From contig CALBEE010000172.1 in NCBI GenBank assembly GCA_937927575.1, positions 1-42,908 on the forward strand: a DNA stretch of 42,908 nt, written 5' to 3'. Of the stretch, positions 14,686 to 22,550 are shown in pieces; positions within the stretch are counted from its first letter, which is position 1, and every line of letters begins with the position of its first letter. This stretch comes from an uncultured Saprospiraceae bacterium. GTDB lineage: Bacteria > Bacteroidota > Bacteroidia > Chitinophagales > Saprospiraceae. The position numbers and the translations under genes were made by a program. Under the pieces are notes generated by a model. That model searched no databases and had not been told where the DNA came from. It saw only the letters and a list, made by a program, of their open reading frames with translations.

Positions 14686-15465
14686 TTAAATAGGTATAGT
14701 AATGTTAAACTGCATTCCTGTAGAAAGTTCAGTATTAAGTTTTGAATCAGCATTAAGTAATTTAGTTCTAGCATTTATATTACTCATACCCAATCCTGAC
14801 ATAAACGTTACTTTATCTTTTATTCCTTTTCCGTCATCTGCATAAGATAGGGTTAATTCATTGTTCTGGACATTTGATTCTATGAAAATATTTTTCGCCT
14901 CAGCGTGCTTTAGGGTATTGGTGGTCAATTCCTGAATGATCCTATAAATATGGAGTTCTTGCATTTTATCAAGAGTACCCCAATCCTCATTTATATCTAG
15001 TGATACTTCAATTTGTCCAGTTCTTTTGATAGAAGTGGCAAATGAGCTTAATGCACTATGGATTCCAAATTTTGTCAAGATGGGTGGCATAAGTTCATGT
15101 GATATTTCTCTGGTGCGTTCGATACTAGACTTCAAGGCAGTATTGATGTGATCTAGTACAACTTCTGGATCTTTTCCTTTTTCATAGATACTTGTAAGCA
15201 TCCGAACATTTAATCCGATTACATTTAATTTTGAGCCGATATCATCATGTAATTCTCTGGCTATTCTCGTTCTTTCTTTCTCTTGTGTTTCGATGTTGCT
15301 GTTTAATAATTTCTTCTGAAAAGCAAGTTCGTTTTCATGGGCAATGGCTTGTTCCGAAAGAATTCTTTTTTGCGATAAATTAAATAATATGATCATGGCA
15401 ACCGCTAAGCCGATCATGACTATTGTTGAAATGAGTACCGTATTAAAAATAGTTTCTTGTTCCAT
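14686..15465 (-). CDS. HisKA_3-type sensor histidine kinase
   Basis: A 259-aa kinase with one N-terminal membrane helix (about 8-30), a short coiled-coil-like linker, the HisKA_3 phosphorylation motif RIARELHDDIGSKLN (H73), and a HATPase_c domain with N-box HIYRIIQELTTNTLKHA and G1 box YADDGKGI. There is no recognisable extracellular sensor domain, so the signal must come through the membrane segment, the linker or a partner. The multi-pass membrane protein encoded 10 bp upstream is the obvious candidate partner. The cognate regulator starts 26 bp downstream. Confidence 0.93.
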   Translation of the reverse strand: MEQETIFNTVLISTIVMIGLAVAMIILFNLSQKRILSEQAIAHENELAFQKKLLNSNIETQEKERTRIARELHDDIGSKLNVIGLNVRMLTSIYEKGKDPEVVLDHINTALKSSIERTREISHELMPPILTKFGIHSALSSFATSIKRTGQIEVSLDINEDWGTLDKMQELHIYRIIQELTTNTLKHAEAKNIFIESNVQNNELTLSYADDGKGIKDKVTFMSGLGMSNINARTKLLNADSKLNTELSTGMQFNITIPI

Positions 15466-15475
15466 AAGCTTCTAA

Positions 15476-16144
15476 TTAGATGATGTCTCCATCTTTTCTT
15501 TTAATGATATAAAATACTCCAGTAAGTAGAATTAAACTCGCTAAAAAAGACGTACTATTTTTCAGTATAGATAATTGATCGTATAAAATGGGTTCCAGCT
15601 CTATTGTTTTATTACTATACATGTACCACGTAACGGAAGTGCAACCACTTAAGAATAGTCCCGTAAAAAAGTATACACTAGGTCTTATTTCTACTATCGA
15701 ATATTTCTTTGTTGCCAAGACACGATAGAAAAATAAAATACTCATGGTAATAGTAAATAATTTTACTGCAGTTACACTTATACTATTATAGGTGTAAATA
15801 TTTTGTTCCAATATTGAATTGTCAATTATAAATACAACGCCAAAAAAAAATATGTAGCGAGTCAACTTACTCGTCAGAATGGGTAAGTTTCTATGACTAA
15901 ACCAAAGAATAAATATAAATTCTAATAAAGTGTATAAGTGAAGTCCTGGTAAATTATTACTTACTCTAAACCAATCTAGACTTATCACAGCGATGGCTTC
16001 AAAAATCACATTGAGTACTAAGAAATATCCAAAAACTTTTTCTTGTGGATTAAAAGAATTTCTACAAAGAATAAATAGTATAGCAAGAAAAAATGACATA
16101 CCGACAACACCATTCACCAGTATGTCACTTATTGCCCTATACAT
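15476..16144 (-). CDS. Multi-pass membrane protein, putative sensor partner
   Basis: A 222-aa protein with six or seven hydrophobic helices spread over its whole length and almost no soluble part; it ends in a short basic tail (KRKDGD). I do not recognise a named family. Its stop is 10 bp from the kinase start, so the two are almost certainly co-transcribed. Because the kinase has only one membrane helix and no sensor domain, I infer that this protein may supply or modulate the input signal. It could equally be unrelated to signalling. Confidence 0.75.
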   Translation of the reverse strand: MYRAISDILVNGVVGMSFFLAILFILCRNSFNPQEKVFGYFLVLNVIFEAIAVISLDWFRVSNNLPGLHLYTLLEFIFILWFSHRNLPILTSKLTRYIFFFGVVFIIDNSILEQNIYTYNSISVTAVKLFTITMSILFFYRVLATKKYSIVEIRPSVYFFTGLFLSGCTSVTWYMYSNKTIELEPILYDQLSILKNSTSFLASLILLTGVFYIIKRKDGDII

Positions 16145-16182
16145 CTAACGAGAAAATGTTGTTAATTCGGATCAAACTGATA

Positions 16183-16617
16183 TTAATTTTGAGGACATTG
16201 CGCTGGACAGGCATTGGTATAATCCATTATCAAGCTAAAGTCTGATTGTCCACTTCTTGTTCCTAAGATCATGAGGTGTGGACGTAAGACTCCGCTTGGG
16301 TCATTCTTCATTCCCATATAGATTCTGACTCCATCGTTTAATGCGGTTTTGTTGTGACTTAAGACTGAGGTCAAATCAGCTAGAGGCATATCAAAATAAT
16401 GCAAAGAATCAGTCGCCATGTAGCTTCGATAATTACTGTCCCATGCTGTTTTCATGGTATTGAATTGTGTAGTTGTAAGTGTATCATTAGGTGCGGCTGT
16501 ATAATAGCCATTAGGATGTCTTTCTGGACATTCTGGACAAGGTGTCGTTTTTGGTTGGCAAGATATTACAACGATCAACATCGCTAAAAGGGTGAAATAT
16601 TTGATTAGGTTTTTCAT
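16183..16617 (-). CDS. Small lipoprotein of unknown function
   Basis: A 144-aa protein with a lipoprotein signal, lipobox VVISC (C20), then a cysteine-containing segment PCPECPE and a C-terminal ACPAQCPQ. The middle contains a well-ordered segment (FDMPLADLTSVLSHN, RIYMGMK, PHLMILGTR) that looks like a conserved Bacteroidota hypothetical domain, but I know no function. The next gene starts 38 bp downstream on the same strand, so it may lead the two-component operon and could be a periplasmic input component. The 295-bp gap in front of it is described separately. Confidence 0.75.
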   Translation of the reverse strand: MKNLIKYFTLLAMLIVVISCQPKTTPCPECPERHPNGYYTAAPNDTLTTTQFNTMKTAWDSNYRSYMATDSLHYFDMPLADLTSVLSHNKTALNDGVRIYMGMKNDPSGVLRPHLMILGTRSGQSDFSLIMDYTNACPAQCPQN

Positions 16618-17763: not shown

Positions 17764-18285
17764 ATGGATCCATTTTTAGGAGAAATCATCATGTTCGGAG
17801 GAAATTTCGCACCGAGAGGCTGGGCATTATGCGACGGACAATTATTGCCAATATCTCAGTATTCAGCATTGTTTTCTATATTAGGAACTACCTATGGCGG
17901 TGATGGTAGAACTACTTTTGGTTTGCCAGACCTTAGAGGGAGAGTACCTGTACATGCAGGTAATGGTCCTGGACTTTCTGATAGAAGATTAGGAGGGAAA
18001 GGCGGTACTGAAACGAATACTTTGACTACTGGTCAATTGCCATCACACACACATAATCAAATGGCTTCAAGTAATGGACCAGATGTTAAAAGTCCTACAG
18101 GAGCATTTTTGCCAACTATTGGAAGGTCAGGAGAAGAAACTTATGCTTCAGCTGCTGGGACTGCAACTCCAATGGGTGGAGCTATCGGACATACTGGTTC
18201 TAATCAGGCAGTTAATAATGTTCAACCGTTCCAATGTGTCAACTTTATTATTGCCTTGCAAGGTGTATTCCCTTCAAGAAGCTAA
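17764..18285 (+). CDS. Tail-collar domain (microcystin-dependent-protein-like) protein
   Basis: A 173-aa protein with the phage Tail Collar fold at about residues 5-62: GEIIMFGGNFAPRGWALCDG, then FGLPDLRGRVPVH. A glycine/serine-rich middle follows, with QLPSHTHN, and the conserved end NFIIALQGVFPSRS. This is the full length of the MdpB/'microcystin-dependent protein' family, which is widespread in bacterial genomes outside prophages. No other phage gene is present nearby. There is no signal peptide. Its role is unknown; in phage the fold forms trimeric fibre collars. The gene has its own terminator at 18342. Confidence 0.88.
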   Translation: MDPFLGEIIMFGGNFAPRGWALCDGQLLPISQYSALFSILGTTYGGDGRTTFGLPDLRGRVPVHAGNGPGLSDRRLGGKGGTETNTLTTGQLPSHTHNQMASSNGPDVKSPTGAFLPTIGRSGEETYASAAGTATPMGGAIGHTGSNQAVNNVQPFQCVNFIIALQGVFPSRS

Positions 18286-18476: not shown

Positions 18477-18484
18477 TAACTTTG
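18477..18484 (+). promoter_or_regulatory. Bacteroidota -7 box of the small-protein/AP/sulfotransferase operon
   Basis: TAACTTTG matches TAnnTTTG and lies 21 bp before the ATG at 18506, giving a start point near 18490. This argues against the in-frame TTG at 18467, which would lie upstream of the transcript. The -33 element is poor. Confidence 0.5.
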
Positions 18485-18505
18485 AAAAACCATAAAATCA
18501 ATGTG

Positions 18506-18694
18506 ATGAACCAATCTAGGGATAAGATATTAAAATCAAAATCTGGTGAATCGATGCCTTTAACTTCTGAAGGCTCATTAGGATTGCTGGCGCTAGGTGA
18601 TGTAGGTCTCGAACTATGGAGAAAAGCGCAAGAAGCCGAGATAGCGTCCATGGAAAAATTATCTTCTAATGATGTCAAAGTGGATGCCATATGA
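18506..18694 (+). CDS. 62-aa small protein coupled to the AP-TPR-sulfotransferase gene
   Basis: The ATG at 18506 gives 62 residues: a polar N-terminus (NQSRDKILKSKSGE), a glycine/leucine-rich centre SLGLLALGDVGLELWRKA, and an acidic end. The stop TGA overlaps the next ATG (ATGA at 18691), so the two are translationally coupled. There is no signal peptide or classic membrane helix, though the centre could insert as an amphipathic helix. I do not recognise a family. Its size, position and overlap suggest an accessory subunit, a small regulator or a substrate/leader peptide for the downstream enzyme; nothing in the sequence decides between these. Confidence 0.7.
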   Translation: MNQSRDKILKSKSGESMPLTSEGSLGLLALGDVGLELWRKAQEAEIASMEKLSSNDVKVDAI

Positions 18695-21264
18695 AGAAGA
18701 GTAAACTAATGCTGATTGGATGGGATGCTGCAGATTGGAAAGTGATTAATCCATTGCTAGATGCAGGATTAATGCCCAATCTTGAAAAAATGGTCAAAAA
18801 AGGTACTATCGGTAATCTAGCAACCATGGATCCAGCATATTCTCCCATGTTATGGACGTCTATCGCTACGGGTAAGCATGCATATAAGCATGGGATACAC
18901 GGTTTTTTAGAACCCACAAAGGATGGTAAATCTGTTAAACCTGTATTGAGTACATCTCGCAAGGTTAAGGCCATTTGGGAAATTTTAAGTGAGCAAGATT
19001 TTAAAACTCACGTAGTGGGATGGTGGCCTAGTCATCCAGCTGAGCCTATGAACGGAATTTCAATTTCTAATTTTTATCAAAAGGCTTCAAATAATCCCAG
19101 CAACAGAAATGAAGTTATGGAGGGATGTATACACCCACCTAAGTATCATGATAGATTTCAAAAGCTTAAGATCAATGCAGAAGAGTTAACAGGTCAACAT
19201 ATTCTACCTTTTATTCCCAAAGCGGATAAAATAGATCAGTCCAAGGAAAAAGGAGTTTATATTGTAGCTAATGAAACCGCTCAAGCAGCATCTATACAAG
19301 CTGCGTTTACTAATATTATTAGAAAAGAAGAATGGGATTTTGCTGCGGTATATTTTGATACTATAGACCATTATTCTCATGGATTTATGAAGTATCATCC
19401 ACCCAAGCAAGATCATATTGGGCAATATGGTTTTGATCTTTACAAAGATGTGGTGACTGCAGGTTATCGTTTTCATGATATGATGCTAGGCAGATTATTA
19501 GATCTTATAGATGATGATACTAATGTTATGTTGATCTCGGATCACGGTTTTGAACCTGATCACTTAAGACCAAAAGAAAGACCTCACGAACCAGGAGGCC
19601 CTGCATATGAACATAGCCCTTATGGAGTAATTGCAATGATGGGCCCAGATGTCAAAAAAGATCACATAATACATGGCGCTACATTGCTTGATATTTGTCC
19701 AACTATATTAGCCATGTTTGATCAGCCGGTAGGTCAAGATATGGATGGTAAGATATTAATGGATGCTTTTCAAAGTAATAAGAAAGTGAATTTTATAGAA
19801 AGTTGGGAAGCCGTAGAATTTACAAAGTTCAAACGGCATACTGACTATGAAATGAATTCTGATGATGAAGATGCTTTAATGGATCAACTGATTGCATTGG
19901 GGTATGTAGAGCCTCTCGAAAAAAACAATCAGAATGATATTGAAGATACTAAATGCTTTAATCGATTTAATCTGGCAAAGAGTTACATGTTTGCAGGGTT
20001 AATGGATGAAGCCATAGTCGAATTAAATGCTTTATGCACACAAAGGCCTAATGTGCCAAGATATCAATTTCAATTGGCCACATGCTATCAGTCTATAAAT
20101 AAGTTATCTGAAGCTCGTGAATTAATAGAATCTTTAAACCGCAAGAAATATTACAATCCTCAGGCTTTACAGATAATGGAAGCCACACTTCTTATTGGCG
20201 AAAAGAAATTTAAAGAAGCTCTTATCATATTAGAATCTTTAGAAAAAAGTGGCACTGTTTTGCAAGCGGAGGTGTATGCAAAATTGGCTAAATGTTATAT
20301 GAAATTTGGCAATAGATCTAAAGCCCAAAAAATACTCGACAAGGGTAAGGCTGTCAATTTTGAAAATGCACAAATTCATTTTTTGCAAGGCCTTTTGTCA
20401 TTTCATAATGAAGAATTAGATAGGTCTATAGATGCATTCTTAACCTCATTGGGACTAGAGTATAATAACCCAATAGCCCATAGGTTTTTAGGAGCTGGAC
20501 TTTATAAGTTAGGACAATACGAACAAGCAGCAAGTGCTCTGGAAGTAGCACTAAAAATGCAACCCAAAAATAATGCTTGTCGAAGCACATTGATTGATAT
20601 TTATAAGATTCACTTGGATGATGTCGTTAAAGCATCTCAGCACAGACAAGCTATGCACCAATATGTAGAGGGTGAAGTAATTATAGTGTCTGGTTTGCCA
20701 AGATCAGGAACTTCAATGATGATGCAGATGATGGAAAGTGGAGGATTAGATATTTACACAGATAAGATTAGAACAGCAGATGACAATAATCCAAAAGGTT
20801 ATTATGAACATGAAAATGTAAAAAGCTTAAAGCATAACAAGAAGTGGATCAGAGAATGTAATAGTAAAGTGGTAAAGGTAATATCTAATTTACTGCCAGA
20901 CCTACCATTGAATACAAGGTATAAGGTGGTAATGATGGAAAGAGATGTCGAAGAAATTCTTGCTTCTCAAAGAAGAATGATTAAGAAATTGGGAAAGAAG
21001 GTGGCTGAAGAAACCTATCCATTACAATTAATTCAAAAATTAAAACAAAGTGTAAAGGATGCGAAGGAGTGGGCTCAAAAGCAGCCTCATGTTGAACTCC
21101 TTATAGTCAATTATAAAGATGTAATTGAGAATCCATTTATTGAAGCCATGAGGGTATCTGATTTTCTCAATAATGCAGTACTTCCAGAGCAAATGGTGAA
21201 TATAGTAGATCCTAATTTATATCGAGAAAAATCAAATAAAACAGAGTTAAAAATTACCCGTTAG
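18691..21264 (+). CDS. Alkaline-phosphatase-superfamily / TPR / sulfotransferase fusion
   Basis: An 857-aa protein without a signal peptide, so probably cytosolic. Residues about 1-370 are a type I phosphodiesterase/nucleotide pyrophosphatase-like domain of the alkaline phosphatase superfamily: metal-site GWDAADW, nucleophile region SPMLWTSIATGK followed by HGIHGF, FDTIDHYSHG, and LISDHGFEPDH. Residues about 420-645 are helical tetratricopeptide-like repeats (NRFNLAKSYMFAGLMDEA and later units). Residues about 665-857 are a sulfotransferase-like domain with the 5'-phosphosulfate-binding loop SGLPRSGTSMMMQ (near 667) and an RDVEEILASQRR helix. The fusion suggests an enzyme acting on sulfated or phosphorylated substrates with TPRs recruiting a partner. 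It is coupled to the 62-aa gene upstream and is followed 38 bp later by a T9SS protein. Confidence 0.85.
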   Translation: MKKSKLMLIGWDAADWKVINPLLDAGLMPNLEKMVKKGTIGNLATMDPAYSPMLWTSIATGKHAYKHGIHGFLEPTKDGKSVKPVLSTSRKVKAIWEILSEQDFKTHVVGWWPSHPAEPMNGISISNFYQKASNNPSNRNEVMEGCIHPPKYHDRFQKLKINAEELTGQHILPFIPKADKIDQSKEKGVYIVANETAQAASIQAAFTNIIRKEEWDFAAVYFDTIDHYSHGFMKYHPPKQDHIGQYGFDLYKDVVTAGYRFHDMMLGRLLDLIDDDTNVMLISDHGFEPDHLRPKERPHEPGGPAYEHSPYGVIAMMGPDVKKDHIIHGATLLDICPTILAMFDQPVGQDMDGKILMDAFQSNKKVNFIESWEAVEFTKFKRHTDYEMNSDDEDALMDQLIALGYVEPLEKNNQNDIEDTKCFNRFNLAKSYMFAGLMDEAIVELNALCTQRPNVPRYQFQLATCYQSINKLSEARELIESLNRKKYYNPQALQIMEATLLIGEKKFKEALIILESLEKSGTVLQAEVYAKLAKCYMKFGNRSKAQKILDKGKAVNFENAQIHFLQGLLSFHNEELDRSIDAFLTSLGLEYNNPIAHRFLGAGLYKLGQYEQAASALEVALKMQPKNNACRSTLIDIYKIHLDDVVKASQHRQAMHQYVEGEVIIVSGLPRSGTSMMMQMMESGGLDIYTDKIRTADDNNPKGYYEHENVKSLKHNKKWIRECNSKVVKVISNLLPDLPLNTRYKVVMMERDVEEILASQRRMIKKLGKKVAEETYPLQLIQKLKQSVKDAKEWAQKQPHVELLIVNYKDVIENPFIEAMRVSDFLNNAVLPEQMVNIVDPNLYREKSNKTELKITR

Positions 21265-21302
21265 TAAAATCAATTTTTCTAAAACTGAGAAATCATAGAA
21301 TT

Positions 21303-22550
21303 ATGAAAAAAATTAAAAAGTATTCTGCCGAGAATCACAATCAAGACGTAGCTGAAAGGTTAAAGTCCTATCAAACACAAGCAAATAGCATTCTTAGAAA
21401 TATGAATGCCCCCTTAAAGAGTAACGGCAAATCTCCCTTATCAACTATAGTACCTTTGGTGGCTGTTGCACTTAGTCCTATAGGAATAAATGCCCAATGT
21501 GGTGTTAGTGTTTTCAATCCTTCAAACACTTTGAATTCTGATATAGGAAATCCCAATATGACCATTGATGTAGATGGAGATGGTACTATAGATTTCGAAT
21601 TGGACCCGCAAACCGATAGCTTATTTCTTTTTCCCCTAAATGGTGCAGAAGTGATTGCTTCAGTAGCGTCGGGTGCTTATCGTTATGTAACTAGACTCAA
21701 TACTGGTGACCCTATAACTAGTGCAGATCCTGATTGGCGTTCTGCCGGAGATTTAATTGCAGGTGCAGCTACCATGGATTACCAAAATTATGGTAACTGG
21801 AATGGAGCAGGAACTGTAGTTGGGTATGTTGGGATTCGAATTAATGGTGATCGTATGGGTTTTATGGAAGTATCATGGAATGATGATGGCGCTGTAGATG
21901 AAGTTACGGTAACTGTAGCATTAACAGGTGCGATGCATCCAGATGATCCTGCCGTTGCTTCTATCGATGCTGGAGATTGTGTTGCATTGCCAGTGGAGTT
22001 AATTGAATTTAAAGGAGAAGTTCGTAATGGTGTTACATCATTACAATGGTCTACTGCTTCAGAAATCAATAATGCAGGATTTGAAGTGCAGAGAAGTACC
22101 GATGGAAAAGATTTCAGAAAATTAGGTTGGGTTGAAGGTGAAATAAATTCTAGCAGAAAACTCTCTTACGAATTTACAGACGATACGGTAATGCCTAATA
22201 GAGAATATTATTATCGACTTAAACAAGTTGATGTTGACGGTGGTTCTCAATTTTCAAATGTGGTCACCTTAACTAATAGAGATGAGTCTCAATTTATGTT
22301 ACATGATATAGCACCTAACCCAGTAACTAATAGTCAGTTGTTTTTACAATTGTCAGCAGGTTCGGAAAATCAATTGATGTTAGAGGTATATAATACGGTT
22401 GGTCAAAGAATACTCGAACAAAATATAAATGCCAAAGAAGGAATGAACCAACACATTCTTGACATAGAATCATTGGCTAATGGTACTTATTTCGTGAAAG
22501 TAAGCGGAGGTGATAATTCATCTTACAAGAAAGTGATCGTGGCGAAGTAG
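21303..22550 (+). CDS. T9SS-exported protein with long pre-signal N-region
   Basis: A 415-aa protein. Its hydrophobic signal segment (STIVPLVAVALSPIGINAQ) starts only at about residue 47, after a polar, lysine-rich stretch (KKIKKYSAENHNQDVAERLK and on), far longer than the usual 5-10 residue n-region. The mature part has a DVDGDGTIDFEL segment resembling calcium-binding repeats (about 83-95), a discoidin-like strand-rich domain with ELIEFKGEV and STASEINNAGFEVQRS (a common module before T9SS tails), and a type A sorting domain from IAPNPV to the end. No internal ATG gives a better signal. It is the last gene of the operon with the sulfotransferase fusion, making it a candidate substrate or client. 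Confidence 0.85.
   Translation: MKKIKKYSAENHNQDVAERLKSYQTQANSILRNMNAPLKSNGKSPLSTIVPLVAVALSPIGINAQCGVSVFNPSNTLNSDIGNPNMTIDVDGDGTIDFELDPQTDSLFLFPLNGAEVIASVASGAYRYVTRLNTGDPITSADPDWRSAGDLIAGAATMDYQNYGNWNGAGTVVGYVGIRINGDRMGFMEVSWNDDGAVDEVTVTVALTGAMHPDDPAVASIDAGDCVALPVELIEFKGEVRNGVTSLQWSTASEINNAGFEVQRSTDGKDFRKLGWVEGEINSSRKLSYEFTDDTVMPNREYYYRLKQVDVDGGSQFSNVVTLTNRDESQFMLHDIAPNPVTNSQLFLQLSAGSENQLMLEVYNTVGQRILEQNINAKEGMNQHILDIESLANGTYFVKVSGGDNSSYKKVIVAK

Follow-up and report, generated by a model that had tools for sequence, protein, structure and literature searches.

Comparisons among genomes indicate that a phosphodiesterase-TPR-sulfotransferase fusion enzyme, a small PEP-CTERM-like protein and exported client proteins carrying the leader motif [KR]-[LI]-x-x-Y form one co-inherited unit. 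In the window (the whole 42,908-nucleotide stretch of DNA analysed here), the unit lies on one strand as a 62-aa open reading frame, an 857-aa fusion and a 415-aa type IX secretion system (T9SS) protein, in that order. The genome of the window (4.45 Mb, 87% complete, 262 contigs) holds one match to the fusion. The features and the evidence for each are as follows.

18506..18694, + strand: small protein, 62 aa from MNQS, stand-alone, PEP-CTERM-like (open reading frame; 80 kept loci in the family)
18569-18622, + strand: core of the small protein, EGSLGLLALGDVGLELWR (sequence)
18691..21264, + strand: AP(NPP-like)-TPR-sulfotransferase fusion enzyme, 857 aa (Pfam, conserved residues, fold of the homologue L176)
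18709..19770, + strand: type I phosphodiesterase / NPP-like domain, end approximate (Pfam, conserved residues)
19948..20640, + strand: TPR repeats, approximate (Pfam, predicted structure of the homologue L176)
20653..21234, + strand: PAPS-type sulfotransferase domain, approximate (Pfam, conserved residues, profile comparison)
21303..22550, + strand: exported client of 415 aa: long leader, then signal peptide, and a type A T9SS tail (Pfam)
21303..21437, + strand: client leader / extended N-region (sequence, family comparison)
21306-21323, + strand: KKIKKY element of the client leader (sequence)
21357-21371, + strand: RLKSY element of the client leader, residues 19-23 (sequence)
22314..22541, + strand: T9SS C-terminal sorting domain of the client (Pfam)

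The initial annotation had proposed this three-gene layout; all three genes proved real, and their coordinates needed small corrections. The 62-aa gene is present but begins at 18506, downstream of the 18477 first given. Its coupling to the fusion through ATGA was confirmed, with the stop of one gene overlapping the start of the next at 18691, and 38 nt separate the end of the fusion from the start of the client. Pfam bore out the joining of phosphatase-superfamily, TPR and sulfotransferase domains in one chain, and the roughly 45 mostly polar residues said to precede the client's hydrophobic segment are there when read by eye.

Linkage between the small protein and the enzyme

The small protein of the window matched no Pfam or NCBIfam family. 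Alignment of 18 members, picked near fusions or through matches among 100 relatives, gave the family core P-x-EGSLGLLALGxxGLxxWRxxR, from which L108 has diverged. The conserved GSL invited a reading as an acyl-carrier-like (ACP-like) protein, which we set aside; the serine is not invariant among the members. Among the 100 relatives, the small protein matched 16 genomes, its own included (E up to 0.01, weaker matches being taken as chance), and all 16 matched the fusion too.

A species-level genome collection was then scanned with a profile of 16 members, solely on the peptide GSLGLLALG[YDA], which yielded 132 stretches and 90 relatives; the best 80 of the 90 were kept as loci. At 70 of the 80, the motif is followed on its own strand, within 300 nt, by the start of the fusion (or of its AP part). 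These 70 take in one locus with AP-TPR and no sulfotransferase (L133), two with the sulfotransferase as a separate gene (L126, L172) and five whose genes are broken or truncated at a contig end (L118, L141, L162, L165, L184). In two further loci (L150, L176) motif and enzyme are fused into one protein, and in another (L111) the motif stands 1.4 kb before the enzyme. The remaining seven have no enzyme near the motif; six of their genomes (L109, L117, L145, L159, L167, L183) hold it elsewhere, with E from 1e-157 to 1e-273, and the genome of the seventh (L173, motif at a contig end) gave no enzyme match. Two record labels look wrong by eye: L173 is labelled Bifidobacterium breve and has Bacteroidota-like genes, and L177 is labelled Rokubacteria and its clients are near-copies of those of L178 and L184.

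Co-occurrence was assessed in 248 genomes of the order, each at least 80% complete; judging by the genome identifiers listed, every profile was run on the same set. The small-protein profile matched 34 and the fusion profile 35; 33 genomes had both, one the small protein only, two the enzyme only and 212 neither (Fisher p 1.6e-37 on raw counts, kinship ignored). The single small-only match, in G449, falls on a hydrophobic stretch within a protein of 337 aa, in surroundings that we take to be an aerotolerance operon, and we counted it as false. As for the enzyme-only genomes, G429 has just a sulfotransferase stretch and the G455 contig begins inside the system. The system is rare across the phylum: 3 of 296 genomes have it, counting that of the window. 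The initial annotation had named a genome-context search beforehand, with independent occurrence of the parts as the outcome that would count against it; that outcome did not arise. The small protein and the fusion co-occurred, 25 of 27 genomes with a leader-profile match (see below) hold the fusion, and the linkage is far beyond chance.

It is very improbable that the three genes are merely co-transcribed and inherited as a block with no joint function. The linkage of small protein and enzyme is, it is true, mostly adjacency, but the co-occurrence persists in the six genomes where the two are unlinked, clients lie on several contigs per genome, and fusions of the parts recur in different arrangements.

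The PEP-CTERM-like segment and its fusions

The core of the small protein has the same plan as the segment recognised in the PEP-CTERM/exosortase (EpsH) system, which according to PMC1569441 consists of a proline motif, about 14 hydrophobic residues and a basic cluster. Two small proteins were scanned: that of L098 passed the cut-offs of Pfam PEP-CTERM (23.7 versus 20.7 bits) and TIGR02595 (19.8 versus 16), and that of the window gave no PEP-CTERM match. A PEP-CTERM protein carries the segment at the C-terminus of a signal-peptide protein, an arrangement that the small protein lacks; in the Bacteroidota members no signal peptide is visible by eye, and most of them continue beyond the basic cluster. 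Unlike in PEP-CTERM proteins, the segment here stands alone or on the enzyme.

The layout of a tail on a signal-peptide protein was found only in client-type proteins of G106, a genome labelled Chthoniobacterales (verrucomicrobial), in which the small motif is their C-terminal tail. G106 has four small-motif matches at E < 1e-7, all after a DYAW..xG stretch; one lies in a 69-aa open frame and one is cut by a contig end. One tailed client-type protein sits directly upstream of the enzyme. In L218, from this genome, leader, domain and tail are all complete, and the tail of L222 reads as plain PEP-CTERM. Elsewhere the motif is at the N-terminus of the whole enzyme in the two fused loci named above, and at the N-terminus of a sulfotransferase in L126. 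Since it is fused to the enzyme, and in G106 to client-type proteins, we read the small protein as a dock or subunit. The tiny coupled partner of the initial annotation is real and linked to the fusion, and is better read as a docking element or subunit.

We regard it as improbable that the system is a PEP-CTERM/exosortase variant with the small protein as exosortase substrate. The L098 scores and the tailed proteins of G106, a genome with two PF09721 matches, would fit such a variant. However, within the order PF09721 (E up to 0.001) found a match in 13 of 34 genomes that bear the enzyme and in 12 of 30 that lack it, these 30 being hand-picked from the rows listed. The window's own genome (G000) had none, and divergent exosortases could escape this profile in any of the genomes. 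Because both classes of genome match alike, an exosortase is not a required partner as far as PF09721 sees, and dependence on one is disfavoured. The small protein, moreover, has no apparent signal peptide, and in L150, L176 and L126 it forms one chain with the enzyme or its sulfotransferase. The system also differs from PEP-CTERM/exosortase in that the tag tracking the enzyme is an N-terminal leader, and the enzyme, unlike exosortase, is a phosphodiesterase-TPR-sulfotransferase with no apparent membrane segments.

Catalytic sites in single and tandem enzymes

Alignments indicate that single-copy enzymes conserve both catalytic sites and that tandem pairs tend to divide them. In the fusion of the window, Pfam placed Phosphodiest (PF01663) at residues 7-289 (E 3.7e-29) and Sulfotransfer_1 (PF00685) at residues 664-841 (E 2.6e-10); no signal peptide was apparent by eye. 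Residues D12, S51, D226, H230, D284, H285 and H308 are conserved at 97% or more across 35 aligned fusions, and we take them to be the two-metal site and nucleophile of an NPP-like enzyme. The PAPS loops are likewise conserved at 97% or more; in the sulfotransferase domain the GLPRSGTS loop (residues 668-675), R751 and S759 are conserved, and we take these to be the 5'-PSB and 3'-PB motifs. The assignment follows PMC6637879 in part.

In fold and in its conserved metal and nucleophile positions the first domain is like members of the NPP family, and unlike them it is fused to TPR and sulfotransferase domains and has no apparent signal peptide. Foldseek matched NPPs and TPR superhelices to the predicted structure of the naturally fused L176, and the sulfotransferase profile matched SULT1A1 and the PAPS loop of TPST1/2. 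The AlphaFold model of L176, made from an alignment in which only two rows were fused proteins, had a mean pLDDT of 88. The small-motif region is modelled as two short helices (block means 88-92), and the block after the start of the linker has a pLDDT of 52.

In tandem pairs, the first (A) copies examined in full have lost D12, D226, D284, H285 and H308 in eight of eight, with S51 or H230 remaining in some, and keep GLPRSGTS in all eight and also in one fragment. The second (B) copies keep the AP residues in eight of eight and have lost the PAPS-loop proline in every case; the RSGTS core is changed in five and kept in three (L260, L256, L103), and all eight retain the arginine that matches R751. 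B copies have likely lost sulfotransferase activity, a loss that is not certain because of this retained core and arginine. Each copy type forms one clade at 100/100 in the tree, the A copies on a long branch. The pattern suggests a division of labour in which both activities are under selection.

Clients, leaders and a candidate processing route

Genes next to the fusion encode exported proteins whose signal peptide is preceded by a leader some 10-50 residues long. The client of the window is T9SS cargo, with a C-terminal tail by Pfam (Por_Secre_tail, PF18962, E 3.7e-13, 50 bits versus a cut-off of 27) and an N-terminal signal segment by eye; it has the type A C-terminal signal of type IX cargo and, unlike the usual cargo, an extended leader ahead of its signal peptide. 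Most clients seen have such T9SS tails, whereas those of L093 and L103 resemble the XrtH/IPTL-CTERM 'midcut' proteins and pass the Pfam IPTL-CTERM cut-off (PF18203); L103 scored 23.8 bits against NF033207, below the cut-off of 45. Client kin outside Bacteroidota have non-T9SS ends (L218, L133).

Thirty clients, hand-picked among the short-leader ones and so not an unbiased sample, were aligned. The motif [KR]-[LI]-x-x-Y stands just before the hydrophobic segment with few departures; its tyrosine is present in all 30, as is one tryptophan of the mature domain. The KKxKKYS-type N-region highlighted by the initial annotation corresponds to KKIKKY, whose kin recur at the N-terminus of long leaders (L089, L090, L119, L163, L256, L276), but what short and long leaders share is [KR]-[LI]-x-x-Y, in the window RLKSY. 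A mature N-terminal stretch, YTDxDPD, was considered as a sulfation site and is weakened as a candidate: its tyrosine is H, F, W or L in four of the 30 clients and is absent from the client of the window. The mature domain has no Pfam or NCBIfam family name. A fold search gave a single match at E < 0.001, to an interleukin-receptor structure (TM 0.27), which we took as meaningless; other matches were T9SS tails such as 8gl6.

The first neighbour cluster ('72 of 89 loci') overstates the clients because it is joined through the T9SS tail. A stricter count gave 63 genes lying within 400 nt, spread over 61 of the 89 loci. The pattern [KRQ][LIMFWV]..Y occurs in the first 75 residues of 53 of these 63, versus 62 of 609 other genes; of the ten lacking it, two have truncated starts, one is an unrelated protein and seven have leaders, most of them with a tyrosine in a similar place.

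A leader profile of 37 positions, run on the 248 genomes, matched 27, of which 25 hold the fusion (Fisher 4e-24, raw counts), with up to 15 leader matches per genome versus one to three fusion matches. The other two are G457, an 85% complete MAG with eight leader matches and no fusion or small protein by profile search, and G492, a fusion-less genome whose match covers only model positions 20-37, past the tyrosine, and in which an ordinary signal peptide precedes the mature domain. No leader-profile match came from ten of the 35 genomes with the fusion, among them that of the window: seven of the window's family, with longer leaders where seen, plus G085, G467 and G429. A leader-plus-domain profile (at most 13 candidates scored per genome) matched, among the matches listed, 52 genomes, 27 with the fusion and 25 without. 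Among those listed, matches in fusion-less G059, G433, G460, G486, G540, G543 and G569 start at model position 17 or later, and those in G457 include full-length ones. Because 23 of the 25 fusion-less genomes have no leader-profile match, the leader tracks the enzyme better than the mature domain does. This distribution supports the earlier proposal that the N-region could be a recognition tag. The leader may, however, be the N-terminus of a family and not a portable signal, because it mostly travels with one domain: the mature domain was the same in 22 of 25 leader proteins from 16 further stretches.

We tentatively favour, at somewhat less than an even chance, a many-clients-to-one-enzyme processing system acting before or during export. 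Many tagged exports would then be assigned to one dedicated enzyme, as in PEP-CTERM/exosortase, LPXTG/sortase and GlyGly-CTERM/rhombosortase. The small helix protein would be a subunit or dock that keeps the enzyme by the inner membrane or by the client, and in the cytosol the TPR domain would read the leader while the client is still unfolded. With PAPS as donor, the sulfotransferase domain could sulfonate the client or a moiety attached to it, the leader tyrosine being the first candidate acceptor or recognition residue, and the NPP-like domain might subject that target to a second reaction, a hydrolysis or a transfer. From there the client would pass to Sec, lose its leader and be sorted by the terminal machinery of its host through a T9SS tail, IPTL-CTERM or a PEP-CTERM-like tail. 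A modified leader tyrosine would vanish from the mature protein if the leader is cleaved in this way.

The modification before export that the initial annotation suggested fits the PAPS-type sulfotransferase domain and one operon in which an APS kinase (L172:5006-5650; only one of 89 loci has such a neighbour) lies directly upstream of the small protein, AP-TPR and a separate sulfotransferase. The proposed order of events is most like that of RaxX/RaxST/RaxAB of Xanthomonas, in which, according to PMC6637879, a PAPS sulfotransferase acts before export and the leader is removed at export. A PAPS sulfotransferase with 5'-PSB and 3'-PB residues, as in that system, is present here. Unlike RaxX, the clients are many and large and have T9SS tails, and unlike RaxST, the enzyme is fused to NPP-like and TPR domains. 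The Rax system also has a short precursor and a RaxA/RaxB-like exporter beside the sulfotransferase; among the 25 neighbour clusters listed here, one ABC-exporter-like gene, named by eye, was found in 5 of 89 loci at a median of 5.5 kb.

It is rather unlikely that the enzyme instead modifies, by phosphodiester cleavage and sulfation, a lipid or surface glycan that displays or anchors the clients, with the leader only targeting them and clients and enzyme co-inherited as parts of one surface structure. Sulfotransferases and NPP enzymes often act on lipid or surface-glycan substrates, and in L165 the small motif forms the C-terminus of a Stealth_CR2-like protein (L165:1468-2439; 4.8e-9, 36.8 bits, just below the cut-off of 39.4) directly upstream of the enzyme; we take Stealth_CR2 to be a phosphosugar transferase family. 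A sugar-transferase-like gene, named by eye, follows the system in L172. Yet clients and tail-collar proteins make up the largest clusters of recurring neighbours, inspection by eye of the 25 neighbour clusters listed revealed no polysaccharide gene cluster, and a lipid or glycan target leaves unexplained why the leader, not the mature domain, tracks the enzyme.

Unlikely, too, is a targeting or holding system in which the TPR enzyme is a leader-specific export chaperone and its catalytic domains add and remove a group that gates release. The TPR domain, the leader and the PEP-CTERM-like helix would suit such a role, as would two chemistries kept together or split between a tandem pair, but nothing indicates that one site undoes the other.

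Within the favoured processing reading, a more specific version is possible though doubtful: a class of pre-export processing in which clients are marked by an N-terminal leader with a conserved tyrosine, a soluble bifunctional enzyme reads this leader and docks through a PEP-CTERM-like tail, and both chemistries act sequentially on the client, the tail having once been part of the client, as in G106, and having become separate where T9SS needed the C-terminus. In the literature searched, judged by title and the start of the abstract, we found no paper on an AP-TPR-sulfotransferase system. The comparisons describe a definite system of three parts, found in many uncultured marine Bacteroidota and in some cultured ones, propose a function class for two families with no Pfam or NCBIfam name (the small protein and the client domain), and link PEP-CTERM-like tails to a soluble enzyme. 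Protein sulfation before export becomes directly testable in cultured isolates, and those holding the system include Winogradskyella marincola (L185), Psychroserpens algicola (L156) and Mangrovimonas xylaniphaga (L179).

Several neighbours were noted in passing. A chimera in L252 (3560-4513), adjoining a leader client, runs from the first half of a small protein through a signal-peptide-like stretch to an IPTL-CTERM-like end. A spermine-synthase-like gene adjoins the system in L257 (9436-9969), with a similar one by eye in L092. Directly upstream of the system in the window is a phage tail-collar gene (17764-18285); such genes, 17 in all and some in tandem, lie close to the enzyme at 9 of 89 loci. 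Further upstream, window positions 14686-16617 hold genes for a histidine kinase (Pfam), for a membrane protein of 222 aa and for a lipoprotein-like product of 144 aa, and similar sets adjoin the system in L089, L106 and L257.
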